DNA from: Mycolicibacter heraklionensis
Lineage (GTDB): Bacteria; Actinomycetota; Actinomycetes; Mycobacteriales; Mycobacteriaceae
Reading direction: 5' to 3'
Assembly: GCA_001673575.1 (NCBI GenBank)
Contig: LZME01000056.1
Span: 1 to 34,819, forward strand
Length of the DNA stretch: 34,819 nt
Of the stretch, positions 1-5,969 are shown piece by piece. The first letter of the stretch is position 1; every line of letters starts with the position of its first letter. The notes under the pieces are model-generated. The model made no database searches. It was not told where the DNA came from and saw only the letters and a list, made by a program, of their open reading frames with translations. The translations under genes were made by a program, and so were the position numbers.

Positions 1-76
1 TCTGGACCAAGACCGCCGACCAAATCCTGGCCAGCATCGGGAACTACTGCACCCGAATTAATGACTCAGGACACTA
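1..76 (+). mobile_element. Right end of an IS630-family insertion sequence
   Basis: A plus-strand frame encoding WTKTADQILASIGNYC and ending RINDSGH then TAG resembles the C terminus of IS630-family transposases. Its stop codon lies in CTAG (74-77), and IS630 is known to insert at the TA of CTAG. The junction with the interrupted portal gene is therefore placed at TA 75-76. The rest of the element is outside the window, so terminal repeats cannot be compared. The family call rests on the recalled C-terminal pattern. Confidence 0.55.
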
Positions 77-77
77 G
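1..77 (+). CDS. IS630-family transposase, C-terminal 24 residues (partial)
   Basis: The frame is open from the window edge (first full codon at 3) to TAG at 75-77. The residues WTKTADQIL followed by an aromatic/Cys segment and a final SGH match the tail of DDE transposases of the IS630 group. The catalytic DDE residues would lie to the left, outside the window, so activity cannot be judged. The stop codon may be supplied by the CTAG target duplicated at the insertion site. Only the family is proposed, from a short fragment. Confidence 0.5.
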   Translation, partial: WTKTADQILASIGNYCTRINDSGH

Positions 78-321
78 CAACAAAGGCGGCCCATGCAGCG
101 GGATCATCAAACCCGGTGATCCTCAACCGCTCGGCAAGGCTCGACACCGCCAACGCCGGAACATTCACCGACATCCGGCACAGCCGATTGTTCAGTGCCT
201 TGCGCGACTCAGGGGATAGAAACGCTAGGGGTTGCCTGCCCTCGGCATACAGCCTCAGGGTGCCGTAGTGGTGTTGCGGCGCGTCGAGTTCGGCCAGCAG
301 ATCATGCAGCAGTTCATTCAT
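58..321 (-). pseudogene. Phage portal protein, N-terminal fragment interrupted by an IS
   Basis: The 87-residue frame starts with an ATGA overlap on the stop of the terminase gene, the usual terminase-to-portal order. Residues of the type YAEGRQPLAFLSPESRKAL, then NNRLCRMSVNVPALAV and LAERLRITGF, match the N terminus of SPP1 gp6-like portal proteins, which are normally over 400 residues. The reading frame ends at TAA 58-60, inside sequence that also encodes the tail of the putative IS630 transposase. The portal has therefore been cut by the insertion. The remainder could lie beyond the IS, outside the window. A full portal would form the dodecameric DNA channel of the capsid; this fragment cannot. 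Confidence 0.65.
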
Positions 322-1775
322 CGGGTGATCACTCGGAATCGTTTCTTTTGCTTGCCCGCAAGCCAGGTGGCGCGGGAGTAGGCCATGACCAGGGCGGCGG
401 CCAGATCAATACGCGGGGCATCCTTGGATCGGCCCGCCTTGCCCAACTTGAGGCCGCCGTCTGCGGTGTCCACCACCGACGCCGCTAGAACGTGCCCACG
501 TAGATCCGCGTCGCCTGAATGCGTCATGCGCCCGTTGACAATTGCGGAATGTAGAGCCGTGGTCATGGCGGTTAGTCGCCGCCCACTCTGCGGTATCTCC
601 ATCACCGGAATGCCCTCGGCGGCAAGCACTTGCAGAGTGCGGGTCCAACGGTGCGGATCGGCAGAGAGTTCTAGGACGTTCCACCGCTGACATGCGTCCC
701 TGATGGCCTGTTCAACGGCCAAAACGTCAATCCGGTGGTCGGGGCTATCCTCAGGCCGAAACAGCCGGTAGGTAGCAACGTGCGGGGTAGCCGAGACAGT
801 CGCCACCACTAGGGCGGTGCAGTCGCGGGAATGGCTGCCATCCAAGCCGATCACCACATCAACGCCATCGGGCACGCCCTCTCCAGTGCCCAGCACATCC
901 CACACATCGGCAGTCACAAACGGGTTCTCGTTATCGGTAACCCACTGCACCAACCGAACCCGCCGAAAATGACTTTCGGTCATCTTCGGCGGCTGTAGAG
1001 CGGCCAGGGCATCCCGAAACAAGAAATCGTCTAGCGCGGGGTTGGACAGCTCCCAACAGTGTTGACAGTCGGTCGGGTGGTCCTCGAAACCGGCGGCGCT
1101 GATCTCGACATACACCTGCGACATGTCGTCGGGATGGGTCCGGGCGTGGTCCCGGAACCCCGCCAGCACGTTGTCCGGTCGCGGTCCGGGCGTGCCGATG
1201 ACCAGAACCGTTGACTCTTTTTGCTTGCCGCTGGCCAGCGCCACAACCTCGTAAGCCTCGGTAGCGACCCGCCCGCCCTCGTCAACGATGCACAACGTGG
1301 GGTTCCGGCCCTCAAGAGCCGCCGGGGTACCTGGCAAGCAGGCCATCTCGGACTCGATGCCAGGAACAACCAGGCGGTCCTTATAGGCGGTTACGCGGCA
1401 TTCCAGCTCGGGGTTGCGGGCGACCATCTTGGCCGCCATGCCGAACACCAGGCCCGCCTGCCGCTCATCAACGGCCACCACGTCAACCGATGCGCCCCGG
1501 CCCGTCATCAGCACCCATACCGCTAACGCCGCTGCCAGGGATGACTTCCCGTTGCCGCGCGGCATGGCGACCGCCGCTAACCGGGGGCGGGGCTGCGGGT
1601 CGAACACTTGCGATACGATGTCCACCTGCCAGTCGCGGGGTTCCATTGCTTCGCCGTCGCCGAAAAGCAAGTAACGACAAGCGAATTCGCGGAACTGCAC
1701 GCTAGGTATCCCGCTTGACGAAAAGTCCAGCGGGTCAGTAACTCTCGGCGGTTTAGGTCCGCGCTTGGCGGCCAT
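318..1775 (-). CDS. Phage terminase large subunit
   Basis: A 485-residue protein from ATG at 1775; an upstream TTG at 1790 is possible, and neither start has a clear ribosome site. It packages DNA into proheads with an ATPase motor and a nuclease. The Walker A motif is MPRGNGKS (about residues 71-78), and the Walker B with catalytic acid is LCIVDE (about 161-166). The C-terminal half has an RNase H-like nuclease start, VVIGLDGSHSRDCTALV, with the conserved Asp. Length is normal for actinophage TerL. The stop overlaps the portal start by ATGA, implying translational coupling. No small terminase is recognised upstream; the 250 bp before it holds only dyads. All visible motifs are intact, unlike the interrupted portal downstream. 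Confidence 0.93.
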   Translation of the reverse strand: MAAKRGPKPPRVTDPLDFSSSGIPSVQFREFACRYLLFGDGEAMEPRDWQVDIVSQVFDPQPRPRLAAVAMPRGNGKSSLAAALAVWVLMTGRGASVDVVAVDERQAGLVFGMAAKMVARNPELECRVTAYKDRLVVPGIESEMACLPGTPAALEGRNPTLCIVDEGGRVATEAYEVVALASGKQKESTVLVIGTPGPRPDNVLAGFRDHARTHPDDMSQVYVEISAAGFEDHPTDCQHCWELSNPALDDFLFRDALAALQPPKMTESHFRRVRLVQWVTDNENPFVTADVWDVLGTGEGVPDGVDVVIGLDGSHSRDCTALVVATVSATPHVATYRLFRPEDSPDHRIDVLAVEQAIRDACQRWNVLELSADPHRWTRTLQVLAAEGIPVMEIPQSGRRLTAMTTALHSAIVNGRMTHSGDADLRGHVLAASVVDTADGGLKLGKAGRSKDAPRIDLAAALVMAYSRATWLAGKQKKRFRVITR

Positions 1776-1811
1776 ACTGGCCAATGGCAAACAATCTAGC
1801 TAACTAGTGCA

Positions 1812-1830
1812 TCTATCCATAGAGGATAGA
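1812..1830. repeat. Inverted repeat upstream of terminase (possible operator)
   Basis: TCTATCC and GGATAGA form perfect 7-bp arms around a 5-base spacer, 37 bp upstream of the terminase ATG. It lies in the only sizeable gap of the packaging operon and next to an ACTAGTGC sequence resembling the ACTAGTAC repeats flanking the excisionase gene. A repressor or activator site is an inference. Confidence 0.35.
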
Positions 1831-1878
1831 CTGTCGTAATTAATTCGGCCGGGCCCCTTCGCCCGCTCCGTATGTTTC

Positions 1879-1897
1879 GATACCCTCGGGGGGTATC
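1879..1897 (-). terminator. Short stem-loop between HNH and terminase genes
   Basis: GATACCC and GGGTATC form 7-bp arms with the loop TCGGG. It sits downstream of the HNH gene stop and upstream of terminase. There is no U-run on the minus strand after it, so it may be an attenuator, a processing site or a protein site rather than a true terminator. Confidence 0.3.
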
Positions 1898-2041
1898 CCC
1901 CTACTGTTTGTGCTGAGTTATGTTGCGCAGCAAAACGTTTCGGACGTCTCGCAAGCGGGCCGTTGGCGGGGTCCCGGCGATGGCGCGATCGGCTCCACCT
2001 GTGCCGTCGGCGTACGATTCCAGCAAACTATCTGGGTAGTG

Positions 2042-2392
2042 CTAGCAAACCCTTGTGCAACGTGGTCCGCGTGCTGGGCCTCGTAGGTTGTTGCACCGCT
2101 TGCAAACCACCGCGATATCGGACAAGCGAATTGGGAGCCCTAATGCGTGGCGCCGCCATGCAGTCGGGGTGTGGTCGGCCTCTAGGTGGTCAGTGCTGCC
2201 GCAGTCGGCGCAGAACGGCTGTAACCGGCGTGCCCGTGCCGAGAGTCGCTGCCACGCGCTGCCATACCCTCGATCTGCCGCACTGGCCTCATTCCAGTTG
2301 GATCGGTCGCGCGGCTGATGGCACTCGGCACACCGGGTGCTGGCTACGGGTTCGCCACAACGCAGACACGGGCGTGGGATACCGGCGGTCAT
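2042..2392 (-). CDS. HNH endonuclease, phage packaging type
   Basis: A 116-residue protein from ATG at 2392; a TTG at 2431 would add 13 residues. The N terminus has two CxxC pairs (CLRCG and CAEC), typical of a zinc ribbon. The HNH core is CADCGSTDHLEADHTPTAW followed by IAVVCKRCNNLRG, giving the His-Asn/Cys metal site and a structural CxxC pair. HNH proteins encoded next to the large terminase are a common phage arrangement and stimulate cleavage of packaging sites. The gene lies between the small-protein operon and terminase, all on one strand. Its role in packaging is inferred from position. Confidence 0.85.
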   Translation of the reverse strand: MTAGIPRPCLRCGEPVASTRCAECHQPRDRSNWNEASAADRGYGSAWQRLSARARRLQPFCADCGSTDHLEADHTPTAWRRHALGLPIRLSDIAVVCKRCNNLRGPARGPRCTRVC

Positions 2393-2459
2393 GGGTTCAT
2401 CTCGGCCAGCGGGCGCACCGGCAAGTCGCAAGCAAGCTGGGCGGTTCGCGGCGGGAGCA

Positions 2460-2696
2460 CTAGCGGCACTCCCGCTGAGCTGCCCTCAATTGGTCAGCGG
2501 CGGCCCCGATGCGCGGCGAGGTGGTAGCGGTCGCAAGTAAGGTCGCTAACCGGTCGGCCAGCTCCGGAGTGAAGGCGATAATGATCCGACCGTGCGCAGG
2601 GTCATCGCACTGAATCGAGATGGCGTCGCCGTCAGTGCGGCGCGGGTGGTAGCTCACCCTGAGGGTGTTGGGATCGGGCTGAATCAGGGTGGTCAT
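2460..2696 (-). CDS. Hypothetical phage protein, 78 aa
   Basis: The start is ATG 2696, chosen because it has a GAGGAA ribosome site 5 bases upstream and overlaps the stop of the preceding small gene as ATGA. A longer frame from 2756 is possible but has no such support. The protein has a beta-rich N-terminal half (LRVSYHP, ISIQCDD, GRIIIAFTP) and a helical C-terminal half rich in Ala, Leu and Arg. No family is recognised. It is third in a coupled trio that feeds into the HNH and terminase genes, so a role in the element's life cycle rather than host metabolism is likely. Confidence 0.65.
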   Translation of the reverse strand: MTTLIQPDPNTLRVSYHPRRTDGDAISIQCDDPAHGRIIIAFTPELADRLATLLATATTSPRIGAAADQLRAAQRECR

Positions 2697-2866
2697 CCAA
2701 GTTCCTCGCGGCGCTCGATGTGGAGTTCCTCGGCCTCGCGCCGGTCGGCGGCGCACTGGGCGCAGGCCGGGTGGCAGGCCAGTGGCGCCACCCGTGTCAG
2801 CTGTGGCGCCTCAATTGGCCGTTGTGCCAGCTGTGCCAGTTGTGCCACGGTTTGAAGCTCGGTCAC
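2693..2866 (-). CDS. Small Cys-containing protein, 57 aa, coupled on both sides
   Basis: The frame runs from GTG 2866 to TGA 2693-2695. Its start overlaps the stop of the upstream gene (GTGA) and its stop overlaps the start of the downstream gene (ATGA), which is strong evidence that it is translated. The protein begins VTELQTVAQLAQLAQR, an amphipathic heptad-like helix. Its middle carries CHPACAQC, a possible zinc knuckle, and its tail is very charged (REAEELHIERREE). No family is recognised. Function is unknown; a zinc-stabilised helical adaptor is one guess. Confidence 0.6.
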   Translation of the reverse strand: MTELQTVAQLAQLAQRPIEAPQLTRVAPLACHPACAQCAADRREAEELHIERREELG

Positions 2867-3138
2867 GCCGGAGTCAGCTTCGCAAGTCGTTCAAGTAGCA
2901 CACGGCGCTGAATCTCGGGGTCGGCGGAGTAAGCGCCCCGATGAACACGGGTAAGCAGTGAGCGGTCAGCTAAATGGCACAGCGTTCGGATGGCTTGGCC
3001 GCGGGTCACCGCCAATCCTTCGGAGACGTCCCGGACGTGAACGACACCGTGGCCGCGCACAAATTCCAGGACGTCATTGGCGAGAGTTCCGGGCCGCCCG
3101 CATCCGGGACAGGGTTCGTCCATTGCAATTCCATTCAT
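2863..3138 (-). CDS. Winged-helix protein with N-terminal CxxC, 91 aa
   Basis: The start ATG 3138 is favoured by a TAATAT -10 box 8 bases upstream (leaderless); ATG 3123 is the alternative. The N terminus has DEPCPGCGRPG, half of a zinc site. The body, ANDVLEFVRGHGVVHVRDV then GQAIRTLCHLADRSLL and RVHRGAYS, reads as a winged-helix DNA-binding fold with a beta wing. It heads the operon leading to HNH and terminase. It could be an operon regulator, or occupy the DNA-recognition role of the missing small terminase; the sequence does not distinguish these. It is coupled to the next gene by a GTGA overlap. Confidence 0.7.
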   Translation of the reverse strand: MNGIAMDEPCPGCGRPGTLANDVLEFVRGHGVVHVRDVSEGLAVTRGQAIRTLCHLADRSLLTRVHRGAYSADPEIQRRVLLERLAKLTPA

Positions 3139-3140
3139 CT

Positions 3141-3159
3141 GGGTAAATATTAATTTCCC
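3141..3159 (-). promoter_or_regulatory. Leaderless -10 box inside an imperfect dyad
   Basis: On the minus strand TAATAT (3152-3147) lies 8 bases before ATG 3138. It is embedded in an imperfect palindrome running from GGGTAAAT to AATTTCCC. Overlap of dyad and -10 suggests a repressible promoter for the packaging operon, perhaps autoregulated by the winged-helix product. Confidence 0.45.
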
Positions 3160-3483
3160 AAATTCAGATTACCATCGAATTTCGGCCTAGGTCCGTCGCG
3201 GCAGAATATTCATGCTACGGTTTAAATAGATGGACAATTGAATAGCCCACGATTAACAGTCGGGGATGAGACATCCGTTAGACGGGGAAAAGCAATCATG
3301 CCCAGTGATGGCCCGAAGTACACGCCTGATTCTCACTGAGCATCCGATTGGTGACACCAGGAACGTAACAAGCCGGAGCCGGAACGTTCGCAAGAGTTTG
3401 GTGCCCAAGTGCCCGCCCCGGCCCACATGGGGGCAGGACTGTTGTTTAGGGGGATTGATCAGGTGCAACGCCTACGGCGGACG
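3160..3483. other. Intergenic stretch without a supported gene
   Basis: This gap separates the two minus-strand operons of the element. It is AT-rich at 3160-3270. A plus-strand frame (3266-3514) is open but has no recognisable fold or ribosome site, and it runs through the terminator of the opposite strand. It is therefore not called as a gene. Regulatory sequence or a small RNA is possible but not shown. Confidence 0.5.
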
Positions 3484-3531
3484 CAAACAAAGAAAAGGAC
3501 GGGGAAGCAGATGAAGGTCTGTTCCCCGTCC
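3484..3531 (-). terminator. Intrinsic terminator of the integrase-side small-gene operon
   Basis: On the minus strand GGACGGGGAACAGA pairs with TCTGCTTCCCCGTCC, with a single bulge and a short loop. The stem is followed at once by TTTTCTTTGTTT. It begins 13 bases past the stop of the 64-residue gene. A hairpin with a U-rich tract of this quality is rare in mycobacterial DNA and supports phage origin. Confidence 0.85.
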
Positions 3532-3543
3532 CCGGCGTTCGGG

Positions 3544-3738
3544 TCAATCCTCGGCGGCCGTTGCGTCGTGTAGGTCGGCGGCGATCAGAGTTGCCGACCC
3601 CCTGGCGAGGTTTTCAGTTTTGAACGGTCCATCAACCTGGATGAATACCGACCATCCGCCGCTATCCCTGAATATTTTTACCGCATCTGGATTTGCTAGG
3701 TGTTGGTGGTGGAGTTTGAAAAATTCTTTCGGGGTCAT
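3544..3738 (-). CDS. Hypothetical phage protein, 64 aa
   Basis: It starts with ATG 3738, overlapping the stop of the gene before it by ATGA, and ends just before a strong terminator. The sequence has a basic helical N terminus (TPKEFFKLHHQHL), a central strand pair (AVKIFRDSG, WSVFIQVDG) and an acidic tail. No family is recognised. Being last in a two-gene coupled operon beside excisionase and integrase suggests an early or maintenance function. That is inference only. Confidence 0.6.
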   Translation of the reverse strand: MTPKEFFKLHHQHLANPDAVKIFRDSGGWSVFIQVDGPFKTENLARGSATLIAADLHDATAAED

Positions 3739-4058
3739 AATGCTATGAAGCCCCCCGCCTCCTGCCCGCCCCGGCCCCTGGCGTTTGGGTTCCGAACATC
3801 TTCTATGAGGGCGCGGGCGATCAGTTTGGCTAGTGCGTCGTCAACGTCGCCCATCTCGACGTCCCGCCATTCGGCGGGACTCGCGTAACCGAGTGCGCGC
3901 CAGCCGTCGCCCGCCATGAACTCATCCAGCATGAGCTGTTGTTGTTCGGCGGCATCTTTAATCTCATTAACAAGGCCGGTGGCCTTTTCGCTGTTATGTT
4001 TCATGCCATCGACGGTACGCCCGGTTTCGCGGTACTTCCACAAATTCACTGACGGCAT
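3735..4058 (-). CDS. Hypothetical phage protein, 107 aa
   Basis: The first start is ATG 4058; an internal ATG at 4004 (MKHNSEK) is an alternative. The middle has a helical region rich in Glu and Gln (EIKDAAEQQQLMLDEFM), followed by WRALGYASPAEWRDVEMG. This last segment has the G-Y-x-S-x-x-E-W pattern seen in small phage and plasmid proteins with ParB-like or DNA-binding helices. No firm family is assigned. It is coupled by ATGA to the next gene and shares its terminator. Confidence 0.6.
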   Translation of the reverse strand: MPSVNLWKYRETGRTVDGMKHNSEKATGLVNEIKDAAEQQQLMLDEFMAGDGWRALGYASPAEWRDVEMGDVDDALAKLIARALIEDVRNPNARGRGGQEAGGFIAL

Positions 4059-4111
4059 AATATGTAGACCGAGAATGTTGTAATATCCACAATTATAGGC
4101 GGGCTAATAAG

Positions 4112-4124
4112 TGTGAACTAGTAC
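4112..4124. repeat. Direct repeat copy 1 flanking the excisionase gene
   Basis: TGTGAACTAGTAC occurs here and again at 4464-4476, one copy on each side of the excisionase-like gene. Both are followed within a few bases by AATTAG. Candidate sites for excisionase, integrase arm binding or a repressor. Confidence 0.45.
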
Positions 4125-4162
4125 GCAATTAGTCGGGCTAGGTATGCAGCAAATGCCGCGCC

Positions 4163-4351
4163 TCACCCGCCCCGGATGGTCGCCAGCTTCTCGGCGTCCG
4201 CCCAACTATCTAGGTCGGCGCGGTCGTAGAACACTCTGCCGCCGAGCCGGTAGGCCCTTGGGCCGGTGCCCGATGTTCGCCACCACCGGAGTGTGTTGGC
4301 TGGAATATTCAGATAGGCCGAAGCCTGTTGGAGTGTCATGCGTTCAGACAC
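4163..4351 (-). CDS. xis: Excisionase-like helix-turn-helix protein
   Basis: A 62-residue protein from GTG 4351; ATG 4339 is in frame, and AGGGG lies about 7 bases before the GTG. The sequence MTLQQASAYLNIPANTLRWW then GTGPRAYRLGGRVFYDRADL is the MerR-like winged HTH of the phage excisionase/AlpA family. The HTH is followed by a short wing and a recognition segment that ends in a helix beginning DSW. It lies just downstream of the integrase gene on the same strand. In tyrosine-integrase elements this protein bends att DNA and directs excision. It may also regulate the flanking repeats. Confidence 0.8.
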   Translation of the reverse strand: MSERMTLQQASAYLNIPANTLRWWRTSGTGPRAYRLGGRVFYDRADLDSWADAEKLATIRGG

Positions 4352-4463
4352 GGATTGCCCCTAGTGATTAAGCGGGGCTGGGCATGGTCTGGGGCGGCCC
4401 AGCTCCGTCAAGCACCGACTGTACCAGCGAATCACCAGAAATGCCCATCAGCAACAACTGAAC

Positions 4464-4476
4464 TGTGAACTAGTAC
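4464..4476. repeat. Direct repeat copy 2 flanking the excisionase gene
   Basis: Second perfect copy of TGTGAACTAGTAC, 8 bases before the end of the integrase gene. A partial third form, ACTAGTGC, occurs near 1803 before terminase. Confidence 0.45.
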
Positions 4477-4483
4477 AACAGAA

Positions 4484-5797
4484 TTAGCGACCCGCTGCTT
4501 TTACGGCGCTGTCCATCGCGGCGGCGAGGTTGTCAAAGTCATCGGGCAGCATATGGCTGTATACATTCATGGTGGTGGTGGCGTTCCGGTGCCCCAACAG
4601 CTTTTGGACGGTGACAATCGAAGCGCCGGACGCCAGCGCCAGCGATCCGGCCGTGTGCCGCAGGGTGTGGGGGGTCGCACCGGTCAGCCCAAGCTTCTCG
4701 ACGGCCTTGTTGAACCGGACTCGAAACCACCCGACCGTCATAGCGCCGCCGTCGGGGCCGGGAAACACATACTCGTCGGGGTCGCGGCCCGCCACCGCTA
4801 GCCGCAGCTCATCAAGACATTCCGTAGTCAAGATGGGCACCGGGCGGCGCTGGTGAGTCTTGGTGTCGCCCTCAACGAGGCCCTGGCCGCGAACGCCAGT
4901 GATTCCCCTTGACACGTTCACGCGGCGGGCGACTAGGTCCACGTCGCGCACCCGCAACGCGGCGGCCTCACCGAACCGCAGGCCCGAGTACGCCAGGAAC
5001 CGCACCATTGCATCAAGCGGGGTCAACGACGGGCGGGTGTCGCTGCGTTGTCGAACCGGCGCGCTGGCGATCTCGGCCGCAAGCCGCCGCACTTGTTCGT
5101 GGGTCAGCGCAAGTTCTTTGCCGGTTGGCTTGCCCGGTAGCTCGATGTCGTCTGCCGGGTTGACCGCTAGATATTTAGCCCGCACGGCGTAGCCGAGCAC
5201 CTGGTGCACCACGTTGTGGGTTTGGATGACGCGCGCGGGGGAGAGTCCCGTCGGCACTACGTTGCCCTCGGCGTCCCGCTTGGGGTGCTTTCGCGCGGCG
5301 GGGTCGGTCGACAGCCATGTGAACCAGGTTTGTAGTCGTTCGTGGGTGATGTCCCTCAACGGTTCGTCACCCCATTTGGGCAAAATCACGACATCGAGCA
5401 GGCCGTCATAGCCCGCCACAGTCTTGGCGGCCCGGTTGGCGGCCCGCTTAGCGGCCAACCATGCCGCGGCCACGGTGGCGAAGGTGACAGCCGAGCGTTT
5501 CGGGTCTGCGTAGGTGCCGGTCATTAGGCCGGTGGTAACTCCAGCTGCGTGGCGTTCCGCGTCTGCTTTGCGTTCGAACGATTTGGATGCCTCGTGCCCG
5601 TCGTTGTCGACCCACCGGGCGAGCCAGCGCCGACCCTGCCCGTGGCGGGCGGTGGCCACCAGCGTGCCGGGCTGCCCATGCTTGGGGTCCGCACACCAGG
5701 AACCGGGGCCGTCGGCGGGGGGCTTTTCGGCCTTGCGGCGGGGTCTGTGCCACCGATCTTCTACGCGAGCGCGACCCCTTGAGCTGCGCTTTTGCAT
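4484..5797 (-). CDS. int: Phage tyrosine integrase
   Basis: A 437-residue site-specific recombinase starting at ATG 5797, six bases after a TAGACT -10 box. The N terminus is basic and probably binds arm sites. Residues about 103-215 form the SAM-like core-binding domain. The catalytic domain has all expected residues: Arg274 in YSGLRFGE, Lys313 in DTKTHQRR, His377 and Arg380 in HTLRHTAG, His403 in LLGHRN and Tyr413 in NVYSHM. Length is normal for actinophage integrases. It would recombine the element's attP with the adjacent tRNA-Leu gene, aided by the excisionase for the reverse reaction. No damage is seen, so the integrase could be functional even though the portal gene is broken. Confidence 0.96.
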   Translation of the reverse strand: MQKRSSRGRARVEDRWHRPRRKAEKPPADGPGSWCADPKHGQPGTLVATARHGQGRRWLARWVDNDGHEASKSFERKADAERHAAGVTTGLMTGTYADPKRSAVTFATVAAAWLAAKRAANRAAKTVAGYDGLLDVVILPKWGDEPLRDITHERLQTWFTWLSTDPAARKHPKRDAEGNVVPTGLSPARVIQTHNVVHQVLGYAVRAKYLAVNPADDIELPGKPTGKELALTHEQVRRLAAEIASAPVRQRSDTRPSLTPLDAMVRFLAYSGLRFGEAAALRVRDVDLVARRVNVSRGITGVRGQGLVEGDTKTHQRRPVPILTTECLDELRLAVAGRDPDEYVFPGPDGGAMTVGWFRVRFNKAVEKLGLTGATPHTLRHTAGSLALASGASIVTVQKLLGHRNATTTMNVYSHMLPDDFDNLAAAMDSAVKAAGR

Positions 5798-5803
5798 AGC
5801 ATT

Positions 5804-5809
5804 AGTCTA
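5804..5809 (-). promoter_or_regulatory. -10 box of the integrase gene
   Basis: TAGACT on the minus strand ends six bases before the integrase ATG, giving a leaderless or nearly leaderless transcript. It lies next to the tandem 11-mers, so integrase binding could repress its own promoter. Confidence 0.5.
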
Positions 5810-5813
5810 GCGC

Positions 5814-5835
5814 TCTGCGGACTGTCTGCGGACTG
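5814..5835. repeat. Tandem 11-bp repeat, candidate integrase arm sites
   Basis: TCTGCGGACTG occurs twice in perfect tandem, between the integrase promoter and the tRNA 3' end. Short direct repeats in this position are typical arm-type binding sites of tyrosine integrases. One more partial match was not found on the tRNA side. Confidence 0.5.
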
Positions 5836-5892
5836 TTCCGGCTTGCAGAGCCGACCGTGTCGGGAGCTGAACCGCTCTGAACTGCCTATTCG

Positions 5893-5930
5893 TGGTGCCC
5901 TCGGTGAGATTCGAACTCACACTGCACGGG
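5893..5930 (-). other. Probable att core within the tRNA 3' half
   Basis: Elements with tyrosine integrases use the anticodon or T-arm part of tRNA genes as crossover cores, and the intact tRNA here directly borders the integrase. The exact core cannot be defined because the other junction is outside the window. Confidence 0.4.
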
Positions 5931-5969
5931 TTTTGAATCCGTTTCCTCTGCCAGTTGGGATACGAGGGC
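5893..5969 (-). tRNA. tRNA-Leu (CAA), 3' end is the probable attachment site
   Basis: Read on the minus strand, the acceptor arms GCCCTCG and CGAGGGC pair perfectly, followed by A and an encoded CCA. The D arm has TCC/GGA around a loop with the invariant GG. The anticodon loop is TTCAAAA (anticodon CAA). The T arm is GTGAG-TTCGAAT-CTCAC. The variable region is only five bases, whereas leucine tRNAs normally have a long variable arm. The top of the anticodon stem has an A-C mismatch. A TAAGGT box at 5993-5998 on the minus strand is a possible promoter. The 3' end faces the integrase gene, so the element probably entered here and regenerated the gene. Confidence 0.9.

Follow-up and report, generated by a model that had tools for sequence, protein, structure and literature searches.

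The window analysed here, the 34,819-bp contig LZME01000056.1 of the Mycolicibacter heraklionensis assembly GCA_001673575.1, harbours at positions 78–5937 the integrase-to-portal half of a small element inserted in a tRNA-Leu(CAA) gene. The element very probably moves as a capsid-forming phage satellite, which would fill small heads of its own making and borrow tails and lysis from a helper phage. Since it has its own head and packaging genes and no recognised tail gene, spread on borrowed helper tails is the likely route, and we infer helper use, induction and packaging from the gene content. The copy itself is a broken member of an already published kind of element; what is added here is its anatomy, the near-constant length of its relatives, a branch without recognised helicase or primase, and capsid exchange between lineages. 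Below, the window contig is referred to as C56, the contig with the other half as C89, the assembly of this strain as G000, and compared loci by L numbers.

Two halves of one element

Read on the minus strand from tRNA-Leu(CAA), the window half comprises an integrase, an HTH_17 excisionase-like gene, five small open reading frames (ORFs), an HNH endonuclease, TerL and the start of a portal gene, with 2.7 kb between integrase and TerL (Table 1). Only half of the element lies in the window, because bases 1–77 are the end of a multi-copy insertion sequence (IS) at the contig break. The portal of the relative L034 (contig NZ_LZTB01000058.1) matches G000 twice, once in the window, where positions 64–366 align to its residues 1–101 with 69% identity, and once on C89 (residues 412–446). 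The two halves sum to 9,667 bp when the IS ends are excluded and one att copy is counted. In the close relative G022, whose flank is 92% identical and which has no TerL match, both flanks are present, separated by 0.45 kb that includes a single intact tRNA; on the C89 side, the ∼450–525 bp adjoining the tRNA are unaligned there, so that the empty site is clear rather than base-exact. The physical link that makes C56 and C89 halves of one element is inferred from the att copy on each contig and from the empty site.

Across the two halves, genes for the element's own major capsid, portal (interrupted), head-tail connector, TerL and HNH were all found, the integrase being in the window and the capsid on C89. 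An earlier note on this DNA, made from the sequence alone, had given the same gene order and spacing for the window end, both of which are borne out by the family matches. It had also likened the layout to satellites carrying their own packaging or capsid genes, of the type of capsid-forming phage-inducible chromosomal islands (cf-PICIs), and this likeness gains support from the head genes and the second tRNA copy on C89. The flank up to that copy, which the note had proposed to extract, consists of 3.85 kb of head genes and cargo; a run of tail, lysis and replication genes tens of kilobases long, which the note would have taken for refutation, is not there.

The 196-amino-acid (aa) ORF on C89 showed no sequence-family match. 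Its L034 homologue is 68% identical, and the model of the latter (pLDDT 85.7) gave 15 matches in BFVD at E≤0.001, 9 of which are named minor capsid, MuF-like or capsid maturation protein, and none in PDB at the same threshold. Hence the fold of the homologue suggests that the C89 ORF encodes a MuF-like protein.

Two further capsid-bearing pieces were noticed in the same assembly, namely a 9.0-kb element at tRNA-Gly on contig C77 (L122:1860–10869) with 43-bp repeats, an integrase, an AAA_25 protein and a capsid, and a 10.4-kb contig, C131 (L121), with an S78 protease, a capsid and a DUF3631 protein.

Table 1. Features of the element on the window contig (C56) and on C89 (positions 1–3928)
Feature	Position	Strand	Basis or remark
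End of multi-copy, presumably IS630-type IS at contig break, inside portal gene	C56:1–77		same 77-mer ends other contigs
Portal gene, N-terminal part only (87-codon frame, last few codons inside IS)	C56:58–321	-	phrog_104, 2.1e-10
TerL; likely start 1775 (gene-caller choice)	C56:318–1790	-	phrog_9, 3e-68; PF03354, 1.9e-10; PF20441, 5.8e-7
HNH-TerL spacer with conserved blocks; candidate cos site	C56:1791–2041		ten-base block, e.g. 1798–1807
HNH endonuclease	C56:2042–2431	-	phrog_144, 1.2e-13
Small ORF, 78–98 aa, no assigned function	C56:2460–2756	-	relatives in L041, L046
Small ORF, 57 aa, outside the family-library scans	C56:2693–2866	-	gene caller
Winged-helix protein, 91 aa	C56:2863–3138	-	HTH_DeoR, 9.8e-4 (under its cut-off); phrog_31115 replication initiation, 0.0036
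Small ORF, 64 aa, no assigned function	C56:3544–3738	-	
Small ORF, 104–107 aa	C56:3735–4058	-	no relative among compared elements
Excisionase / AlpA-like HTH_17 protein	C56:4163–4351	-	PF12728, 2e-11; phrog_66, 6.1e-9
Tyrosine integrase	C56:4484–5797	-	PF00589, 6.2e-24
att repeat (45-bp 3' end of tRNA-Leu)	C56:5893–5937		second copy C89:3884–3928
tRNA-Leu(CAA), integration site	C56:5893–5969	-	
IS end	start of C89		shared IS end, 76/76 bases
Portal C-terminal end (L034 residues 412–446)	C89:70–168		
Putative MuF-like ORF, 196 aa	C89:167–757		fold of L034 homologue
Scaffold	C89:754–1161		phrog_233, 2.5e-7
Capsid	C89:1276–2151		PF05065, 8.5e-34
Head-tail adaptor Ad1	C89:2154–2459		phrog_137, 1.6e-4
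Cargo ORF, 274 aa	C89:2477–3301		opposite strand to head genes
Excalibur-domain cargo ORF	C89:3410–3613		
Second 45-bp tRNA-Leu att copy	C89:3884–3928		identical to C56:5893–5937

The interrupted portal gene

Both portal pieces abut the same IS end, with 76 of 76 bases shared and C89 beginning one base later, while the opposite end of the IS is a different 77-mer that has only the terminal repeat in common with it. The IS ends several contigs of G000, and its copy on contig C64 contains a 327-aa frame that looks like an IS630-family transposase. One simple insertion into the portal gene is ruled out by the presence of the same IS end on both pieces, which instead requires at least two IS copies in opposite orientation, or a rearrangement, between them. 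Measured against L034, the assembly lacks about 310 portal codons, which may have been deleted or may reside in a short contig dropped from it. Since insertion sequences split the portal gene, which is open in the relatives L034, L035 and L040, this copy can probably no longer act as a satellite without a portal supplied in trans.

Relatives of the element and their length

Matches to TerL were found in 85 of 297 genomes of the genus (Mycobacterium; E≤0.001) and in 68 of 351 genomes drawn from the family (19 of 31 genera), the weak ones including other TerL lineages. Forty-eight TerL loci, 36 from the genus and 12 from other genera, were fetched by region (∼20 kb per locus) and delimited by exact repeats on both sides of TerL, which succeeded for 27 and 10 loci, respectively. 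Four of the 27 belong to another class, leaving 33 delimited elements that share the head module, 23 in Mycobacterium and 10 in four other genera; the repeats lie inside a tRNA gene in 30 of them. In a profile search all 33 were found to carry integrase, HNH, TerL, portal, scaffold, capsid and Ad1, with an excisionase in 28 and a MuF-type gene in 15. Gene order, taken from stop-to-stop frames sorted by start, is identical in 31, one neighbouring pair being swapped in L057 and L126. The length falls between 10,050 and 11,320 bp in 30 of the 33 (median 10,594), a count made without L068, L069, L073 and L074 (other class), L122 and L135 (lacking this TerL) and 11 non-delimited loci. For L057, which has two repeat pairs (19 bp at tRNA-Tyr, 10,741 apart, and 25 bp, 10,514 apart), the tRNA pair was taken. 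The 11 non-delimited loci include 2 at contig ends; 8, among them these 2, show the same head order or part of it, and 3 are of the other class. No longer prophage with these head genes was seen in the fetched regions. At the same tRNA gene as in the window, another genome carries L034, whose integrase is 71% identical to that of the window.

The repeated unit of 8–16 kb with one gene order that the earlier note had sought thus exists as a ∼10.6-kb unit in many genomes. These data also bear on the view that the element is a defective prophage, i.e. a temperate phage at tRNA-Leu that lost its tail, lysis and replication genes and kept the head genes by chance. The portal of this copy is indeed split by insertion sequences, the 2014 survey of mycobacterial genomes read such elements in this way (PMC3986857), and in the non-delimited locus L053 genes are recognised only up to the portal; yet the same gene set and near-equal length recur in 33 delimited elements from five genera, tRNA genes being the site in 30, and purifying selection acts on most core genes. 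The related suggestion of the note, a prophage that lost its middle, finds no support in these selection data, nor in the fact that all 33 delimited relatives with the head module measure at most 13.8 kb. The distance from known phages points the same way: a search of 50,697 phage records with TerL gave 1,047 matches, all below 60% identity and the 20 best-ranked at 24.7–30.0%, whereas 36 elements have a median TerL identity among themselves of 50%. We therefore consider decay from a prophage very improbable.

The ratio of nonsynonymous to synonymous differences (pN/pS) is 0.13–0.17 for TerL, 0.27–0.31 for MuF and 0.30–0.33 for scaffold (this copy, L034 and L040), 0.27 for the integrase (this copy against L034), and 0.18 for portal and 0.17 for capsid (both L034 against L040), with synonymous sites almost saturated in most pairs. 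Purifying selection acts on TerL, portal, integrase and scaffold.

A junction of the attP kind was considered in the metagenome contig L035, with an integrase after the adaptor, and was discarded, as the frame beyond att is not the element's own integrase. This second integrase-like frame (L035:6720–7105), lying past the tRNA-Leu att repeat, suggests stacked insertions at this tRNA.

Exchange of the capsid gene

In TerL this copy matches L059, which is the same element as L034, and L040 at 83% of positions, but in the capsid at only 24–25%. For L050 the identities to this copy are 76% in the capsid and 51% in TerL. Judging from these comparisons, the capsid gene is exchanged between lineages. 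The exchange is not recent to this strain, because the metagenome contig L035 shares both genes with it (TerL 86%, capsid 94%). The scaffold and MuF of this copy are 65–73% identical to those of L034 and L040, and its Ad1 46–47%, the nearest Ad1 (62%) being that of L046, which has the other capsid type; the idea that the adaptor moved together with the capsid was dropped for this reason. Over 630 pairs the correlation between TerL and capsid identity is weak (Spearman 0.14), the pairs not being independent.

Early region and replication

As the earlier note had stated, no recognisable replication, repressor or small-terminase gene is present: the window ORFs scanned, all but the 57-aa ORF (2693–2866), yielded neither a DNA helicase or primase nor a repressor or small terminase, and the 91-aa winged-helix protein has a weak phrog_31115 match. 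This protein, 48% identical to one of L046, is possibly a minimal replication initiator or regulator. Given this weak initiator match and no helicase or primase match among the scanned ORFs, replication of the present copy likely leans on host or helper proteins. Iteron-like origin repeats were limited to a few short, chance-like ones in 3130–3560 and 4050–4170.

The note had further named, as counter-evidence, relatives that all carry a full early region between integrase and HNH. Early genes do occur there in relatives, and 11 of the 33 elements match one of four helicase/primase-like protein clusters (scanned examples of 420–747 aa); L049 has a further AAA_25 protein, and other elements may hold replication genes outside the scans. 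This copy, L034/L059, L040, L041 and L046 match none of the four clusters. A 207-aa protein of L040 matches replication-initiator families (phrog_270, 1.5e-6), and L046 encodes a 306-aa protein without assignment.

Packaging, tails and the need for a helper

This copy and its closest relatives, L035, L059 and L040, keep several blocks of the 250-bp spacer between HNH and TerL. A block of ten bases (window 1798–1807) occurs in these 4 out of 29 TerL-upstream regions searched and in none of the other 25. At a guess, the spacer may contain a cos site; a promoter would explain the blocks equally well.

No tail family was matched among the scanned ORFs of either half (the 57-aa ORF being unscanned and the portal middle absent from the assembly). 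The head might then deliver DNA tail-less, or with unrecognised tail proteins encoded by small ORFs, in an autonomous minimal virus or transfer agent in need of no helper. Several small ORFs are indeed without a match, and the Streptomyces satellite MiniFlayer is described with short fibres rather than a helper-like tail (PMC10690885). The Ad1 of this copy and the Hc1 head closure protein of L034 and L054, however, are neck proteins of siphovirus type, no lysis gene was recognised between the two tRNA copies, and a helicase or primase is likewise unrecognised in this copy, all of which makes such autonomy very improbable. In G000 neither of the tape-measure families PF10145 and phrog_2337 was matched, so that no resident helper was recognised; these two families leave some tails uncovered, and among 14 control genomes the searches were positive in 7 and 2, respectively.

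As a capsid-forming satellite, the element would be released as a circle by excisionase and integrase upon helper infection or induction, and the circle would be copied by the winged-helix initiator together with the host or helper replisome. TerL with HNH would then cut near the HNH-TerL spacer and fill a small head of ∼10–11 kb capacity, which the adaptor, in relatives also Hc1, would join to the siphovirus tail of the helper.

Several points weigh against this interpretation. Neither an excised circle nor induction, particles or a helper was observed. From the published cf-PICI description or from close relatives a small terminase, a protease or Hc1 would be expected, but no separate small-terminase family was matched among the scanned ORFs (divergent ones are easily missed), no separate maturation protease family was matched in this copy, and no Hc1 was recognised in it; among the matches of the MuF-like fold are proteins that bear the name capsid maturation protease. 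The capsid (pN/pS 0.81–0.84) and Ad1 (0.48–0.61) of this copy are too distant from those of L034 and L040 for a useful test of selection. The loci compared were best matches and well-assembled genomes rather than a random sample. Finally, three elements are longer (12,855, 13,246 and 13,741 bp), one of them (L043) with a transposase gene, and any longer prophage would count as non-delimited because of the size of the region fetched per locus.

We lean slightly towards a wider picture, in which Mycobacteriaceae harbour capsid-forming satellites of one family, the small heads that they make holding their genome length close to 10.6 kb, with a branch that has no helicase or primase of its own and uses the helper for replication as well as tails, and in which the capsid is swapped between lineages while scaffold, portal and terminase are kept.

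Cargo genes

In the product of the 274-aa cargo ORF (L078), the motif R-N-x-W-A-H is invariant in 8 of 8 homologues and presumably resembles the HEPN nuclease motif. The HEPN reading rests on this motif, as the protein model (pLDDT 80.5) found no fold match in PDB at E≤0.001; PADLOC found nothing in the cargo of this copy. Cargo ORFs between adaptor and att, together with an assembled sequence that cannot yield a complete portal, would suit a domesticated element kept for its HEPN-like and Excalibur-domain proteins and not for transfer. Since the cargo varies between relatives while the head and packaging genes stay, most of them under selection, domestication can hardly be credited.

Cargo of relatives includes a trypsin-like protein (L041:12225–12965; PF13365, 2.2e-12; LmuA model, 4.9e-7) and a PD-T7-4-like defence protein (L043:14636–15313; 5.3e-12).

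A second class of elements with a tape measure

A tRNA-integrated mycobacterial class encoding a tape-measure protein was also observed (L068, L070, L071, L072, L073, L074 and L135:10817–14002). Its members also have TerL, portal, protease and capsid, and the delimited examples measure 17.0–18.8 kb. The tape measure was recognised by phrog_2337 in L073 (5.7e-204), L135 (4.4e-190) and L068 (2.8e-61), and by tblastn in the others; L135, located at tRNA-Leu and 10.6 kb long, encodes capsid and tape measure but no TerL of the present family. In L069 (16.7 kb), a primase accompanies a similar head module, and no tape measure was found. Two assignments were rejected: protein cluster 52, taken for a primase, is a tape-measure protein, and cluster 50, taken for a small terminase, is a minor-tail or connector protein. 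Putative tape-measure (tmp) genes in cf-PICIs have already been reported (PMC12987554).

Comparison with known systems

The 2014 survey counted 22 small prophage-like elements against 11 full-length prophages in mycobacterial genomes (PMC3986857). If many of the former are satellites with their own heads, they form a little-studied gene-transfer system in a medically weighty genus, and helper phages could move them. The near-constant length leads to a simple, testable prediction on head capacity, and in view of the capsid exchange one may ask how a single type of scaffold can serve capsids of just ∼25% identity.

A literature search judged by titles and abstract openings showed no paper devoted to a fixed length, a helicase/primase-less branch or capsid exchange in mycobacterial satellites, which is weak evidence of absence. 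The gene content of phiRv1 and phiRv2 of M. tuberculosis is not known to include TerL or portal. These two elements, of 9.3 and 10.8 kb (PMC3986857), have been called PICI-like (PMC10654092).

The new satellite type envisaged in the earlier note had in fact been described in kind in 2014 and 2023. Fan et al. (2014; PMC3986857) described ∼11-kb mycobacterial “prophage-like elements” with integrase, primase, HNH, terminase, portal and capsid, among them phiBN44_1 (11.1 kb) and phiMCAN_1 (11.2 kb); phiMmar03 (10.7 kb), at tRNA-Leu, is another prophage-like element of that paper. By that description, phiBN44_1 and phiMCAN_1 resemble the present element in integrase, HNH, terminase, portal, capsid and a size of ∼11 kb; they differ in being listed with a DNA primase, unrecognised in this copy and its nearest relatives, and were interpreted as decayed prophages. 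Abad et al. (2023; PMC10654092) treated integrase-plus-capsid elements as candidate mycobacterial PICIs and proposed satellites. These share with our element the integrase and major capsid, tRNA integration and tyrosine integrases, some having helicase, terminase and scaffold; section 9 of that paper gives no common length or shared gene order for them, and the copy studied here is IS-split.

Like the present element, cf-PICIs have their own capsid, portal, connectors, TerL and HNH and need helper tails, as related second hand in PMC10690885 and PMC11389934. In our element, no separate small terminase or maturation protease and no helicase or primase is recognised, and a scaffold and a MuF-like protein are found instead. 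The Streptomyces satellites MulchRoom and MiniFlayer, as described in PMC10690885, are similar in having their own capsid and packaging genes, HNH and no recognised primase, but differ in being satellites of virulent phages with direct terminal repeats and low GC content.

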